Shown here piece by piece: positions 39,275 to 46,854 of a stretch of 64,000 bases of DNA. Numbering within the stretch: the first letter of the stretch is position 1; every line of letters begins with the position of its first letter. Below the pieces are notes generated by a model. That model had not been told where the DNA came from. It did not search any database and saw only the letters and a list, made by a program, of their open reading frames with translations. Location of the stretch: contig CACVBU010000274.1 of the NCBI GenBank assembly GCA_902728285.1, positions 1,939,234-2,003,233 of the forward strand, read 5' to 3'. The position numbers and the translations under genes were made by a program. This DNA comes from Clytia hemisphaerica. Lineage: Eukaryota > Cnidaria > Hydrozoa > Leptothecata > Clytiidae.

Positions 39275-39682
39275 TTACAGAGGAAATATTTCTTCACCAA
39301 GAAGAAAGTAAGGGATATCCATTTCAGTCCCCGGAACCATTTCTCGACCCGGTACGTTCTGTGTGTTGTTTTCAAAAGCATCGAAAATCTTGGAGTAAAG
39401 AAGAATTCCGCTGTCATTGTTTGAACCATACTGACCCACATCTACAAATGTGAAATTATATTTAGCATCGCATATAGCCATTAGCACTATACTAAAAAAA
39501 CCTTTGAAATTATGATGAAGACTACCAGAATTAGGAGGTGCTTCGATCATTACATGTTTTCCGTCGATTGCCCCGAGTACGTAAGGAAATTGCCATAAAC
39601 ATTCAAAATCACTAGCAATATTTCTCCACTGATCTTGATGTGAAGGAACAGTAACGTATGAGTCCATCAAGACTGAAACCAA
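39275..39682 (-). pseudogene. PIF/Harbinger transposase (DDE_4) fragment
   Basis: About 136 codons containing 'LGAIDGKHVMIEAPPNSG' (first catalytic Asp in GAIDGKH) and 'FVDVGQYGSNNDSGIL' (second Asp), the core of the PIF/Harbinger nuclease. The third acidic residue and the C-terminal third are missing at the left, and the N-terminal part runs out near 39700. No paired Myb-like protein is nearby. Harbinger-type MITEs at 27883 and 53684 may have used a relative of this enzyme. Confidence 0.8.
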
Positions 39683-39699
39683 CGCCTCAGAGGTTTCAC

Positions 39700-40388
39700 T
39701 AAGTATGCGACTTACACTCTTCGGTCCCAGTCTGGCTATTCAGCGCAAGCTATTCGCGCGAATCTTTAGAATTGGGCGTCAGATCAAAGCGAGAGGGCGG
39801 TACAAACAAGCGAGAGGGCGGTACAAACAAGCGAAGAGGCGTACTTTTCCCGCCCACCAACAAAAGTTGCCTTTTAACCAGCTTGTAAGCTAAATGCTTA
39901 AAAAATATTGATTGAATAAGCCAGACATACATCTTGAAAAACTAAAATAACCATAAACATACCAATATATGCTTTGATCTGACCAAAAAACTTGATTTAT
40001 CTTCCTTCCTCAAACACTGGTAGGTCACAAAAAGAATGGGCTTGATTGGGAGTATGCTCTAACAACGATTTAAAAAAAATACTTCCACCCATTGATGAGA
40101 GACTGAATGTCTGTTCTTAAAAGTCATTTTTTAAACAAGATTACCAAGCCAATTTCAAGTCACAATTTTGATAAATTCTCTTCTCACTTCCCATGTCAAC
40201 ATATTCCGCCATATTTCTTTTGTCAATTTTCACAACATTCGAATCCGGAAAACGTTCGAAAATACTAGTTCCCAGTCGGGAACCGCGCAAAAAAAAAAAA
40301 AAAATGCGCGGGAAAGTTCTAAATGAAAACAAACAAAAATATTTGACAGGCTTCCAGACAATTTGATGGTGCTTTCCTTCCTAAAAAC
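39700..40388. other. Flank of the RAG1-like element
   Basis: 39787-39845 holds a short direct repeat 'gcgagagggcggtacaaaca' (two and a half copies). No gene. The left terminus of the element below should lie here, but I could not match it to a right end. Confidence 0.4.
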
Positions 40389-43300
40389 ATGGATAAAATA
40401 CATGAAAAGGCAATGAATGACTTATGTATGGTTTGTGGAGTCATACCCATGGGAGAATCATCGAGCTGGACTTGAGCCTGCTTTTCATTTTGATTTATCC
40501 CTGGAAGAGACCCGTCACTATCCCAAAAATATTTGTATGAAGTGCTACTAAAAAATGAAAAATTTCACTAAAAGATCAACAGCAACATCAACCGGGTCAA
40601 CATCAAGTCCCCTTACTAGACCCTCCTGGCTACCCCACACTGACGATTCCTTTAAGGTATGTGAATTGTACCACACTTTGACAAAGAATCCAAAACAAAA
40701 CAAAACAAAGAGCATCAAGAACAGAAGGGGTAGACCATCAGGACAACCGGCATCACATTCAACATATTGGACAAGATCTGACAGTGAAGAACTAGAGGCC
40801 ATGATACTATGTCCTTTCCAGATTCATCTTTCCCTCCAAGACTTTGAGGAAAAGTCGAACCCACAACTGGCCTTATGTAAATGTGATTTATGTTGTCAGC
40901 TTTTAAGAAAACCTGTGGTGATTTCAAAGTGTCAACATTGTTTTTGTTTTGGATGTCTAATCCGCACCATCGAGGGCTGTTATGAAAATGGCATGTGTTG
41001 CCCAATTTGTAATGAAAAAATTACAAAGGAACATCTCATCCCATCCAAAATTTTATCAAAATTATTAATGACATTGAATTCGACCTGTTTGAAGGGTTGT
41101 GGTGAGAAATTTTCAACAAACGATCTATATGCTCAGAAGAAACATGAACTCTCTTGCGAAGGTTATTCAATAAAGAATTTGTTGAGCATTGCACTGGTTG
41201 ATAACCTTCCAAAAGTTGCTGAAAAACCTGCCGGGGTATTAATCAAGAACAAAATTGAAAATTCAGGAAACAATTGTATAAATATCTTTTCCGGTAGACC
41301 AAAGGTGAGATTATTATTCTATATACTAGAAATAAAAACTTGAATTAAAAATTATAAAAATTTAAAATATAGGTTAACTTTGTGCTGATACTGATATGAA
41401 AACTTCAGGAAGGCACTTTAAGAAATATTTTACAAACAGATTCTGTAGAAAAATATGTAAATAATTCGAAAATAAACAAGATAAAAATGCGAAAATTTAT
41501 GAGGATGGAGGGTGTGGGAAGTGGTTAAGAGATATCTAATAGAATATTTTCAAAAATTCAATTCAATTCAATACTTTTAAAGCCATTGATGTTGACGGTC
41601 ATACCTGCGACAGAGAAGGACAGTACCGAGTCGTCAAAACGCACAATCCAAAAAAGAACAAAACTATTAAGAGAGACGATTGCTTTGGCTTCTGGAGGGG
41701 TATTTCTTCATCAAACAAGAGACATTTTAAAATCGATTGGGGCAGATGATAGGATGAAAATCTTGGATAATAGTGGTATTTCGACAGTTCATATTGATGC
41801 TGAACTATTAGTTGCAATGAAAGCTGACCTTGACCTGTCCTGGCAACGCATGAAAGCACTTTCAAGGCAAAATCAATTCTTACAGTATGCCTTATGCTTT
41901 TCTTAACCAACACTGAATCTTTATCAAATTAAAGGTGAAGTGGATACAATTTTTCCAGACCAGTCAAGTCAATCTAACATGAAATTATAATTTCTATTAG
42001 ATGGATGTTAACATTCAACATTTCGATGGCTTCCAACCATAAGCAAAGAGCATTCTCTAAAGAATGGTGTGGTGAAAACTTCTGCGTAGAAGAAGCTCCT
42101 TTCTTATTTGATGTAAAGGACAAGAAGGGCGTCCACGTAGTTGGTTCTGCTGCATGGGGCTTCATTCCTGATCTTCCAAGTGCTGTAGTCACATTTGTGA
42201 ACAATCTTGATACGTAAGTCTTCCTGAAGAAAAAGGACAGTTTTGTGAAAGAAAACATATAAATGGTAAATATCTTGAAATTCTCTTATGTCTAAAATTC
42301 AAAAAGAGCTTTTGAAAATCAGATACAAAAATTTCTGTTTAGGGAAGGCAGATTGGTACATCATCCACAGATGGATGATGAAATTCATATCAAGATTGGC
42401 GGTGACCATGGAGGGAAGTCGTTCAAAGCCTGTTATCAGGTCTGCAACACTGTGAATCCTAACAGCAAGGACAATACAGTTGTATTTTCCATGTTTGAAG
42501 CAAAAGATAAACGCCGAAACCTACAAACAGGTCTCAGTATGTTTACCAGTCAGGTTGACCAATTCCAAGAAATGAAATGGAAGTGAGTCTTTAATAATAT
42601 TTTTATTTGGTTAAGCAAATTTGATATTTCAGGATGTTAAAAATCGCAGCTTTAAAATTGGATTCCCCAGGAGGCCTTATGAATCAAATTCTTATCTCAA
42701 TCATTACAGAGGAACGGCCCAAAACAATAATCAAAATTTTGAGACTATAAATTTCTTTTACAGTGATCACCCCTTCAGAGTTTTCTTTACTGGTGACTAT
42801 GAGTTTTTGTGTGCAGCTTGTGGGTTGACAGGAGCAAGTGGTAAGTATTAACTATTATTAACTGTAAAAGTCCAATTTCAATTGTCCACCATGAAAATCT
42901 TTTTTGTTTCATCAGCAAAGTATATGTATACAACTAAAGTTTTTCTTTTTTCAGGAAAGTACCCATGCTTGTTGTGTGACATCAAACAATCTGATCTAAA
43001 AATTCCCAAAGACGAACGCTACAACAAGCCAAGAACACTTGCCTCTTTGGATGAAAATTTGAAGAAATTTGTAGAGACCTTCAAGGGACATCTGAAAAAT
43101 GTAATATTTCAGGGGCCAGGACGGGTTAACAAGATTTTAAAAACTGAGATTCAAAATATGTTTGGACTGAGATTGCTATTTTCAGCTTTATTTTCCTATT
43201 TCATCAATCAGAGATCAGAGAATACATGAAATTAAAGCCCATTGAAGAACAGCTAAAGAAGGGAAAATGTACCAAAGCTTTGGATGATATGTTGAAATCA

Positions 43301-44289
43301 GTCAATGTAGAACGACAGGCCTATCACGGCAAATCTTTTATTGGCAACCATGTGAATAAGCTTCTAAAGGTATTTTGTTTTACACATAGTTTCTCATGGC
43401 CAATTTATCTAAATTTCAATCAAGCATATTCCCCTGGAAAAATCATACGAATCTTGACTGTTAAACAGTTTAAATCAAGTAATATTTAAATCAATTTTAG
43501 GGAGAAAACATTAGAATGTTGGTTCAGACTCTACTCAAGTATGTTTGGAGGAATAACCTTGCTGGTTCGCAAGTGCATATGGATAGCATCCAAGTTTGCA
43601 AGACTTTCAAGACATTATTTGACTTGTATGCTGCTTGTCAAACTGTTTTGAATCGCGCAGAGGGAATATACCCAGACGAAACTGACATTCTAGGTAAAGC
43701 TTGTTTGACTTAAGAATGACTTAATATTTCAATTTTTTAATATCTGCAAAAAGAGACAAATTAGTTAAGTTCTTCTTGTGTTAAGATATCTTTTTAATAA
43801 AGTCCTTTTACATATGAAGTCGTTTCTTTCCCATCACTCTTCATGGAGTGAACTTATAGCTATGATAACAAACTTTGAATGGCACATTTGAGATTGTTAC
43901 CTCTTACCTAGGCTTTCCGAATAAAAAAAGGGATTTTATTCCTAACTTTATTCCTATTCTTTTCATTATTCATAGAGCACGATATCAATGAATTGATGTC
44001 CTTTTACCGGGCTAAGTTCCTAATTGAGACGGTAACACCAAAGTTACACTTACTTGAGGATCATGCCATCAACTTTATGAGAAAATGGAGATCATCCTTT
44101 GGGATATATGGCGAGTAAGGCCTTGAGTTAATCCACAACATCTTCAATAAGTGCAAGCAAAAGTAGGTAGGAATGAAGAAAAGTACAGCTCGACTTGGAT
44201 CAATGCTTAGTGATCACTATTCTCGTGTATATCCAAAATCTGTTTCATTTCGCCCTGAAATAAAGAGGAGAAACGTATCAGAAGAATGA
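40389..44289 (+). pseudogene. Decayed transposase with RAG1-like zinc-binding N-terminus (N-RAG-TP-like)
   Basis: Coding pieces: 40389-41304, 41583-41884, 42001-42213, 42343-42582, 42633-42840, 42955-43369, 43501-43693, 43976-44289, with good GT-AG borders. N-terminal order matches vertebrate RAG1: a CMVCG pair and a later CMKC pair, 'SWLPHTDDSFKVCELYH', a RING (CDLC, CQHCFCFGC, CCPIC, the same spacing as RAG1; ~40882-41010), then 'CLKGCGEKF' to 'HELSC' as an extra zinc finger, then a GRPK stretch. The catalytic part is different: 'IKIGGDHGGKSFK' (Asp at 42404), 'FFTGDYEFLC' (Asp at 42795) with 'GLTGASGKYPCLLC', and 'TPKLHLLEDHAINF' before a GE-stop where GEQ-x2-E would be expected. Breaks: a shift near 40474, stop 40549, shifts within 42715-42765 and 43150-43200, stops 44116 and 44164. 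It is therefore dead. Confidence 0.78.
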
Positions 44290-45330
44290 CATGGAATAAA
44301 ATAAATGCTACGTTCAAAGCCAGTCTTTACAATTTTCTAGTTTTTGATAGTATTTTTATTTTTACTAGTTCTTTTAGTTCAATTTTTTGGGTGATTTCAA
44401 AATCCTTGTATATGTCAATCACACATCATTTGAGTTAAGGGCTCTGACCATAGTGATTTTTTTATAATTGCCGTGTTTAAAATGTGTTTTCTGACTAATA
44501 TAACCAACAAAACTATGGCATGTTATACATTTTTTGTTAGACAAACTATTCCTGAATCTGAAAATTCAAAAATTGCAATGAAAAAATTTGATGAAGAAGA
44601 AAATGAAGACTTTTGCGAGGAAGAGTATTTCAACTTTGAAGAGCTTAGTTTCGGCGAAGAAAAAACATTTTGAAAAATTTTTCGCAGTAGATGGTGTATC
44701 TTTTACCTAACAATTAAAATCTTTGCGGAAAATTTTTGTATATGCTTCTTTGTCTCAAATCTTCAAAATAGTGGTTTTTCATCAATTTTTCATCTGGATT
44801 TTGCTTAAAAAAACAGTCACAACTTTTGACACATCTTTTTAGAAAAATTTTCCGCAAAATACAACACGTATTACATTAAAATATCTACGGACAAACCAAA
44901 TTCAGCAGAAAACTCTGCTTTATGCTCACAGCAAAAGTAATTGGTATTTTTAATACATTTTTTTTGGATGGCAATGCAGATCAAGAAGTCGAGGCACAAG
45001 GAGTCATTGAGATTGCAGACGGTGACAAAAGCAACGAGCAAGACGACCCTCCGGAAAACGAAGCACCAGGTGTGTGTATTTGATTCGCATAATTTTGCTG
45101 AGTTATAAAAATCAGTTTGCAATAGGTTTTCTATCCAATCAATATATGAGCACACAATGTTCAATAAAAAAAGTAAAATGACATCAAATCTTTTGTTAAA
45201 ATATGCTAAAGAAGCTTCAAGTATGTAAACAGCTCATTATATCTTTTAGATTCAAGCACACCACGTATTACATTTAAATATCTTTAGACAAACCGAACTC
45301 TGCAGAAAACGTTTCAACCAACCCAAGTCA
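44290..45330 (+). other. Region with acidic exon-like pieces and a duplicated 50-bp segment
   Basis: 44545-44673 encodes an acidic stretch ('EEENEDFCEEEYFNFEEL') ending in a stop. 44980-45069 looks like an acidic exon ('DGDKSNEQDDPPENEAPG') before a gtgtgt donor. 'acacgtattacatt..aaatatct' with the following 'gacaaaccgaa' occurs at 44864-44915 and again at 45263-45312. No protein family recognised; probably remnants of an element. Confidence 0.35.
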
Positions 45331-45623
45331 ATACACACGAGTACTATCGAGAGGTGTGCCGGGATTTATTTACGCACATGTTTTCGAATGAAAAAGTTAA
45401 CGTTGGAAGGTATTTGGCTTTTTGTAACAGATACCATCGTGAAGGTGGTATTAGAAATCGTGAATGTTCACAACCTCGATTCGATGCTTGGTGTTTGGTG
45501 CGTGGCTGTTCAAGAAATCTCTTCAACCTTAAGAAATTTTTTACAAGATATCCATCTTGCTATGAACAAATAAAACAATTAAGAAAGTTATTAGATATTG
45601 TTGTGGAAGATAGATTTTTGTAA
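45331..45623 (+). CDS. Unidentified exon-like ORF, ~90 residues
   Basis: Open frame with Cys/His-containing, basic sequence ('FCNRYHREGGIRNRECS', 'WCLVRGCSRNLFNLKKFF'). I cannot assign a family. It follows the duplicated segment at 45263 and ends at a stop overlapping a possible gtaagt donor (45619). It may be the tail of a transposon protein. Confidence 0.3.
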
Positions 45624-46143
45624 GTTTTTGTTTGGTTTTTGTTTTTAAATCTTTTTCATTGCGTATAGATTATAGATTATAGATATAGGGCCATTTATGT
45701 TTCTTTTTCGAGCAACAAATGTATTAACGCGTATTCAAATCTGTTTTCTCGTTATTTCCATTATATAAAATATGAAATGCCATAACTACAAATTGATATT
45801 ATATCATACTGAACGATAATTTACCTAAAAGTAGTTCTCATTAAAACCTATTACAAAATTGTTACAAATCTGTTATATTTTCCTTCAAAATCTAGCCTCT
45901 GCTCCAATTTAATTCTAATCGAAAAGCTCAGAGACTGGAAAATTTTTAGTTTAAAAAGTACTCAAAGACTTTCTTCATATTATCAAAGAAATAATTCAAT
46001 ATTTACCCATCATTTTATTTTTCTATTAAATACTTAATAGATTGAATAATATAGAATCTGATACAAATGTACATTAAATATAATATAAAATATCATAGTA
46101 AATTCAAAATTCTACATAAAAAGTCCAAGCACAACAATATATT
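45624..46143. other. AT-rich, no feature recognised
   Basis: Nothing coding or repetitive stands out in this stretch. Confidence 0.5.
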
Positions 46144-46854
46144 CTAAATGTTTTTTATGTAATCATCAAGGACCTTGTCACCTTCAATAGGAATCAAATT
46201 ACTTGTATTAGTAGGTCTTTTAGGCAAAGTTTTTGTCGTGGCTTGCTCTTTTGTTGTAGATTCATCCCCAGATATTTCAGACTTGCTATCGTCATCAGAA
46301 CAAAGGCACATTCCCTGTCTCTTCGATCTTTTAAACATTGGAGCAGGAAACTTTTTCTCCTTAACCTTTCCACTGTTGAATTTGTCAAATTCGAATTCTG
46401 ATTCTTCTGAAGATGAAATTTGTTCAAATTCATAGTAAAGTCTCATTAATAATGCTGGAAGTGTACAAAACATATTTTATTTACAAATTTTAATCAACAA
46501 TTAACTTTTTAAAACAGGCGCTATTAGCCCTGACTCTTAAAGAGTCTTTAGTCGTTTAGGAGTGCGAAAGCGGAATGAGGGATCTTTCAAAATGAAGGAC
46601 CAAGATTTGCGTCCATATTGTGTGATACCTTGCTTCAGAAATTAGTCTTCTTCACTAGTAAATTTAACAAATCTCTTTGTTACTTGTTGTTGAGCAACCT
46701 CTCTTTTAATCTCAATGTTATTATTAGGTATGTGATCCATTCTGGCACGAATTGTCAACACTTTGGTACAATCCACTGGAGCAGATTCTGTCATTGTAAG
46801 ATCTATAGATTCGTTAAGAGATTCACTACTCGAGTGACTTAGGGCAAGTCTCAA
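46144..46854 (-). CDS. Two small acidic, Ser-rich minus-strand ORFs
   Basis: 46144-46473 (109 residues from ATG 46473) is rich in Ser/Glu with basic patches ('FKRSKRQGMCLCSDDDSKS'). 46642-46854 (70 residues) has 'SHSSSESLNESIDLTMTES'. Both look like disordered nuclear-protein segments and could be exons of one gene, but no homologue is recognised and splice joins were not proved. Confidence 0.3.

Follow-up and report, generated by a model that had tools for sequence, protein, structure and literature searches.

The window analysed here is a 64,000-nucleotide stretch of the Clytia hemisphaerica genome (contig CACVBU010000274.1), in which positions 39734-44289 hold a degraded, intron-bearing transposase gene interrupted by a frameshift, stop codons and an internal deletion. 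The gene has about ten exons in its family, most of which the window copy retains. Its DUF1280 core, together with the CAC ends and 4-bp target duplications of its relatives, leads us to assign it with high confidence to the Chapaev superfamily (CMC group), as a decayed autonomous cut-and-paste DNA transposon that couples a RAG1-type amino terminus to an RNase H-like core. The kind is already known, Chapaev with a RAG1-type zinc module and a RING, and the copy found here is broken; an excerpt of Kapitonov and Koonin 2015 (PMC4411706) describes, for two subgroups of Chapaev, a Chapa domain together with a RING, and a core only distantly related to Transib.

The amino-terminal half follows RAG1, the enzyme that rearranges antibody genes in vertebrates, along its length. 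A profile built from exon 1 of six loci and searched against the Protein Data Bank (PDB) ranks full-length mouse RAG1 first (E 6.6e-17) over a single stretch (residues 101-381 of RAG1); BRCA1, the highest-scoring chain other than RAG1 (2.3e-10), is more than six orders of magnitude weaker. Judged from sequence, homology to the RAG1 amino-terminal region, over its whole length and in order, is real. An earlier note on this DNA, made from the letters alone, had listed zinc, RING and catalytic motifs, all of which are present, and the RAG1-like order of zinc modules, RING and finger that it proposed is borne out by the collinear profile match. The array goes beyond chance, because the exons recur in order in relatives and the amino-terminal profile matches RAG1. 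The GRPK segment that the note had set alongside RAG1 is present at the end of exon 1 and is not conserved: other loci read GGPK, SGPK, GGPR, GSSR, GSSS or GGSR, making GRPK a quirk of the window copy. Homology to the RAG1 nonamer-binding domain is not shown.

Relatives were sought in 417 Mb of genome on 951 contigs, where exon 4 finds 56 matches at E 0.001 or better (identity 100% to 29%). Twenty regions of 9.5 kb were retrieved, and exons were modelled in 11 loci; exon order is constant across several subfamilies, and exon 2 is modelled in all 11, in some with stops. The earlier note had suggested looking for intact copies and their ends. One locus, L034, reads intact: its ten exons have GT-AG sites and agree in phase, no stop interrupts them, and they encode 981 amino acids counted from the second ATG. 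In six copies both termini are readable. Loci L030 and L031 share 98% identity along their main stretch, which suggests recent movement. Database searches for homologues yielded none, either with the RING exon alone (411 candidates, none accepted) or with the spliced L034 protein (7994 scored), in a database probably poor in animal proteins; core-profile scans of viral and prokaryotic contigs gave 89 and 78 pattern matches, 0 confirmed. A second DUF1280 family is present at L048 (C793:494168) and L049 (C852), the former with an open frame of at least 678 amino acids in which a PHD-like finger, scoring under threshold, separates the second catalytic region from the third.

DUF1280 (PF06918) is matched in exon 4 of the window copy (Table 1) and in L034 (E 1.1e-12). 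The L034 core reproduces the local spacing of RAG1, with D-x18-C-x2-C and H-x4-H identical and a Glu following at +17; counted from the second His, Glu residues lie at +17 and +21 in L034, and at +17 (E959) and +20 (E962) in RAG1. The RAG1 residues compared are D708, C727, C730, H937, H942 and E962, which we take to be catalytic or zinc-binding and whose positions we checked on the mouse chain. D-x18-CxxC is kept in 10 of 10 further loci with exons 5 and 6 modelled, and HxxxxH-x16-E in 8 of 8 with the last exon modelled, the window being included in each count. The first and second Asp are 70 residues apart in L034 and 108 in RAG1, and the spacing from the second Cys to ALH is 67 versus 63 (ALH at 793 in RAG1). 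Shuffled sequences carry the joint Asp-Cys-Cys-His-His-Glu pattern in 3 of 20,000 cases for RAG1 and 1 of 20,000 for L034, compared with 193 and 212 for the Asp-Cys-Cys part alone and 899 and 912 for His-His-Glu alone. We read the shared spacing as support for a link with RAG1, not proof of it, since the pattern was drawn after viewing both sequences, E962 sits at +20 and the distances between motifs differ. The earlier note had called this half unlike Transib or RAG. That holds insofar as no RAG1 profile match is found, and fails in that RAG1-like active-site and zinc spacing is kept; moreover, an excerpt of PMC3985635 identifies DUF1280 as the Chapaev transposase and places it in the same small clade as RAG1.

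All six copies with both ends read (L027, L030, L031, L033, L034 and L036) are flanked by a 4-bp target duplication (ATCG, TGCT, ACTC, CCTT or TTGG; TGAT in L033). CAC is present at one or both ends of these six and of L021, L025, L028, L029, L032 and L037. The ends of the fetched loci begin CACGG, with two exceptions: L039 (CATGG) and the window copy, which lacks the three bases. A 5-bp duplication is absent from 5 of 5 copies tested, and the 3-bp TWA duplication of Chapaev3 type was not found. An excerpt of PMC4079192 gives CAC...GTG termini and a 3- to 4-bp duplication as Chapaev hallmarks, with 3-bp TWA for Chapaev3.

In two subfamilies the left and right ends differ in layout. An inner block (CGCG; CCCG in L036) starts at 25-26 in the left ends of the five subfamilies read (L021/L025, L027/L029, L030/L031/L033/L037, L034/L036 and L039), and at 15 (L030, L031) or 16 (L027, L028) in right ends. 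Ungapped comparison of the two L030 ends gives an offset of 11 (TCGCGCATCTCAGATTT against TCGCGCATTTCAGGTTT), with 1 of 2000 shuffles as good at any offset; L031, of the same subfamily, gives 11 again, with 0 of 2000. The L027 ends are offset by 10, equalled by 37 of 2000 shuffles over any offset and by 4 of 2000 when only offsets 9-12 are considered. The L034 ends align best on diagonal -13, which 848 of 2000 shuffles match, and show weaker blocks at offsets 10 and 12. Ends taken from different subfamilies give best offsets of 12 (L039/L034), 13 (L021/L034) and 10 (L021/L030), and for L021/L027 a best offset of 12 that is no better than shuffles (741 of 2000). Two subfamilies clearly show the 10-11 bp asymmetry, about one helical turn; for the L034 subfamily it is not established. 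Genome-wide, the two asymmetric subfamilies account for 10 long and 13 short ends, which form six inward-facing long-short pairs and no long-long or short-short pair within 12 kb; since the copies are related by descent, the pairs do not count as independent evidence on a pairing rule. Among the pattern matches, short ends C421 and C753 read CATGG and long end C566 reads CACGACC.

The RAG1-type module also occurs beside a different transposase core. A genome search with RAG1_imp_bd (PF12560) gives 28 matches at a threshold of E 0.01. Eight of them are followed within 12 kb, in the same orientation, by a match to exon 4 or DUF1280. Another 16 are followed after 0.9 to 2.9 kb, again in the same orientation, by PF21787, which is the RNase H domain of transposases of the P-element type (chance expectation about 0.025, from 150 scored PF21787 places); the other four are near neither. 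At C394, C824, C435 and C254 both domain matches report the same open-frame length (642, 703, 701 and 730 amino acids), which suggests single uninterrupted fusion genes. Three loci of these 16, L050 (C327), L051 (C861) and L052 (C185), match RAG1_imp_bd at 1.3e-13 to 4.7e-13, with PF21787 at 3e-24 in L050 and 3.2e-26 in L052, and PF12017 under its cut-off in L050 (8.2e-4). Searched alone against the PDB at E 10, the first open reading frames of L051 and L052 find RAG1 chains only, all three distinct sequences in either case, with best E-values of 1.7e-6 for L051 and 5.2e-7 for L052. These three loci share with the window element a pre-RING zinc module matching RAG1, and differ from it in having a PF21787/PF12017 core rather than DUF1280 and no RING match in their first open reading frames. 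In a tree of ten pre-RING modules RAG1 falls next to the P-like rows, but support is weak (72/80), the branches are long and its placement is not fixed. We infer that the zinc module here corresponds to the Chapa domain, as both match RAG1. The fusions bear on a statement in an excerpt of PMC4411706 that RING and Chapa domains occur in no other known transposable elements as of 2015; a non-exhaustive search of the open-licence literature, including an excerpt of PMC7204232, found no later report of a RAG1-type module in P-like transposases.

Several observations weigh against the Chapaev assignment, for which the Repbase elements were compared by description only. Few terminal bases are common to the two ends of an element (7 in L034, 14 in L030 and L031), and the window copy has neither an intact left terminus nor a right end that we could find. 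The core profile, searched against the PDB at E 10, returns no RAG1 or RAG1L chain and no transposase, its sole listed match being an unrelated antigen (0.86), and scores 0.2 bits directly against RAG1, where the five best of 1000 shuffles scored 1.9 to 9.4. Single amino-terminal sequences, too, prefer other RING proteins: the window RING exon alone ranks TRAF6 (3.3e-8), BRCA1 (1.6e-7) and RNF168 (2e-6) over RAG1 (9.1e-6), L034 alone puts RNF125 first with RAG1 absent from the 55 sequences listed, and Pfam RING models stay under cut-off in both (18.6 bits against 21 in the window). The CxHxxCxxC spacing that the earlier note had read as exactly that of RAG1 is thus present and not specific to RAG1. 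Such rankings, with weak zf-AD matches, favour a reading in which generic zinc modules, a RING E3 plus ZAD-like treble clefs, came to resemble RAG1 by convergence. Even in the six-locus search, RAG1 chains limited to the RING (3jbw and 6dbi; 4e-8 and 3e-7) fall under BRCA1, TRIM31 and TRIM5. Yet that search puts full-length RAG1 first through a collinear match of pre-RING part, RING and second finger, and RAG1 chain 21wb is matched over pre-RING columns only (5e-7); it is the whole collinear region, not the RING alone, that singles out RAG1, and we consider convergence very unlikely. Whether generic E3 ligases are the better match, a check that the earlier note had proposed, depends on the query: E3s and BRCA1 are favoured by the single RING exon, full-length RAG1 by the six-locus profile.

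Two other kinds of transposon share features with the window gene. In favour of a RAG-like (RAGL/ProtoRAG) or Transib element are the RAG1-type amino terminus, the CAC-initial ends and the RAG1-like catalytic and zinc spacing, but the core profile matches no RAG1 or RAG1L chain in the PDB at E 10, and the duplications are 4 bp, where excerpts of PMC4411706 and PMC8289069 report 5 bp for Transib and ProtoRAG; we regard this origin as extremely improbable. A genome search with PF12940 gave no match and is uninformative, as its positive control was also unmatched. The remaining candidate, and the one expected by the earlier note, is N-RAG-TP, taken here as an element distinct from Chapaev, that Panchin and Moroz reportedly described from Aplysia in 2008 and that is proposed as donor of the RAG1 amino terminus. 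Here the homology of the window gene to that terminus agrees, N-RAG-TP likewise holding a RAG1 N-terminal-like protein within a transposon. However, an excerpt of PMC8355894 reviews N-RAG-TP as RAG1 N-terminal-like throughout, whereas the window family has a full DUF1280 core, a comparison made by description only; ends, duplications and core all fit Chapaev. Identity with N-RAG-TP is accordingly improbable, and the donor claim is not supported beyond the amino-terminal homology.

As a Chapaev element, the window copy starts at 39734, where homology with L021 and L025 begins, and not at 40389 as the earlier note had it (Table 1). It sits in a Harbinger-type DDE_4 transposase remnant (window 39275-39733; Pfam E 2.1e-10). 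Another copy of this remnant, L042, shows 97% identity as far as 39733 before it runs into different sequence, as at an empty site; the right flank is unconfirmed, because the continuation of L042 was not found in the window. Decay is extensive. Relative to L021, exon 1 is frameshifted and about 36 bp shorter, with a TAA at 40549, and 764 bp that would separate exon 6 from exon 8 are missing at 43105; in the last exon, two in-frame stops precede the terminal stop, and the terminal CAC of L021 and L025 (ends CACGGC) is absent.

Table 1 Features of the window copy
Feature	Position	Strand	Remark
Left terminus, GGCTATTCAGCGCAAGCTATTCGCGCGAATC...	39734..39800	+	Homology start with L021/L025; L042 flank match to 39733
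Exon 1, 5' part: CxxC and C..C zinc pairs, pre-RING (Chapa/RAG1_imp_bd-type) module	40389..40546	+	Uninterrupted in L021 exon 1
LCMVCG, then CMKC, zinc pairs	exon from 40389	+	
Exon 1 remainder	40552..41304	+	Family N-terminal profile matches RAG1 101-381
W-L-PH...C motif	40627-40662	+	Exon 1
RING, C-x-H-x2-C-x2-C spacing	40882-41010	+	Exon 1
C2HC finger (C-x3-C...H-x4-C)	41086-41157	+	Exon 1
SGRPK ahead of donor, exon 1 end	41290-41304	+	
Exon 2	41583..41866	+	AG acceptor; GC at expected donor
Exon 3	42001..42213	+	Recurs in relatives
Exon 4, IKIGGDHGGKSFK; first putative catalytic Asp (GGDHGG); DUF1280, PF06918	42343..42582	+	Pfam E 3.6e-15
Exon 5: second putative catalytic Asp (TGDYEFL; GDYEFLC)	42764..42840	+	
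Exon 6, end lost: CxxC 19 residues past second Asp	42955..43104	+	
Exon 7 (PALHISLG in relatives)	missing		Deletion at ~43105
Exon 8 equivalent (QSEIREYMKLK...)	43205..43369	+	
Exon 9 equivalent	43501..43693	+	
Last exon: HxxxxH pair and putative catalytic Glu (HLLEDH...GIYGE; TPKLHLLEDH in 43976-44286)	43976..44289	+	

Two repeats follow the gene. Just downstream, 44435-44860 is a repeat of about 427 bp with at least about 30 copies at 96-97% identity among the matches listed (40 of 2033 candidates scored), and is probably a young miniature inverted-repeat transposable element (MITE). A GCCGTG at 44469 was tried as part of the right end of the Chapaev copy and rejected because it lies inside this separate repeat. 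The adjoining 44861-46828 is a repeat common to C854, C788, C473, C257 and C163, for the most part at 92-96%; it may belong to the Chapaev copy itself or be a different transposon.

An intact family member would be expected to move by cut and paste. A transposase dimer would grip both CACGG ends, the core would cut at the CAC/GTG borders using its two putative catalytic Asp and one Glu, and the element would reinsert, making the 4-bp target duplication. By analogy with RAG1, for which these roles are reported, the zinc/RING part may dimerise, aid nuclear entry and exert regulation through a putative ubiquitin ligase activity.

What the family adds is a genome rich in copies, one reading intact, of the class of Chapaev elements whose amino terminus is shared with RAG1; with such copies, the origin of the RAG1 amino-terminal region and the age of 12/23-like asymmetry relative to RAG become testable. 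The end asymmetry and the P-like fusions look newer and are the parts worth following: an excerpt of the Chapaev account (PMC4411706) makes no mention of asymmetric ends, although no literature search aimed at them was made. The relatives in this genome hint that the module is shared between different kinds of transposon. A bolder proposal, which we offer tentatively and think unlikely on balance, is that the RAG1 amino-terminal zinc module is a cassette shared by two or more unrelated superfamilies of transposase (Chapaev and P-like) within a single genome and that its Chapaev carriers have 12/23-like bipartite ends, the inner block lying 10-11 bp further in at the left, so that two hallmarks of V(D)J recombination would extend more widely than RAG. 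If true, 12/23-type pairing and the RAG1 amino terminus could predate RAG or come from several donors.

Compared by description with the Chapa- and RING-bearing Chapaev elements (excerpt of PMC4411706), the family agrees in its RAG1-type zinc domain followed by a RING, its DUF1280 core, its CAC ends and its 4-bp duplication. RAG1 and RAG1L resemble it in collinearity with mouse RAG1 101-381 and in D-x18-CxxC and HxxxxH spacing, and differ in that its core is undetectable as RAG1 by profile, its duplication is 4 bp rather than 5 bp and its GRP motif is not conserved. The 10-11 bp offset between its ends is nearer the difference between 12- and 23-type recombination signal sequences (11 bp) than the 27/31 bp arrangement of ProtoRAG (excerpt of PMC8289069).

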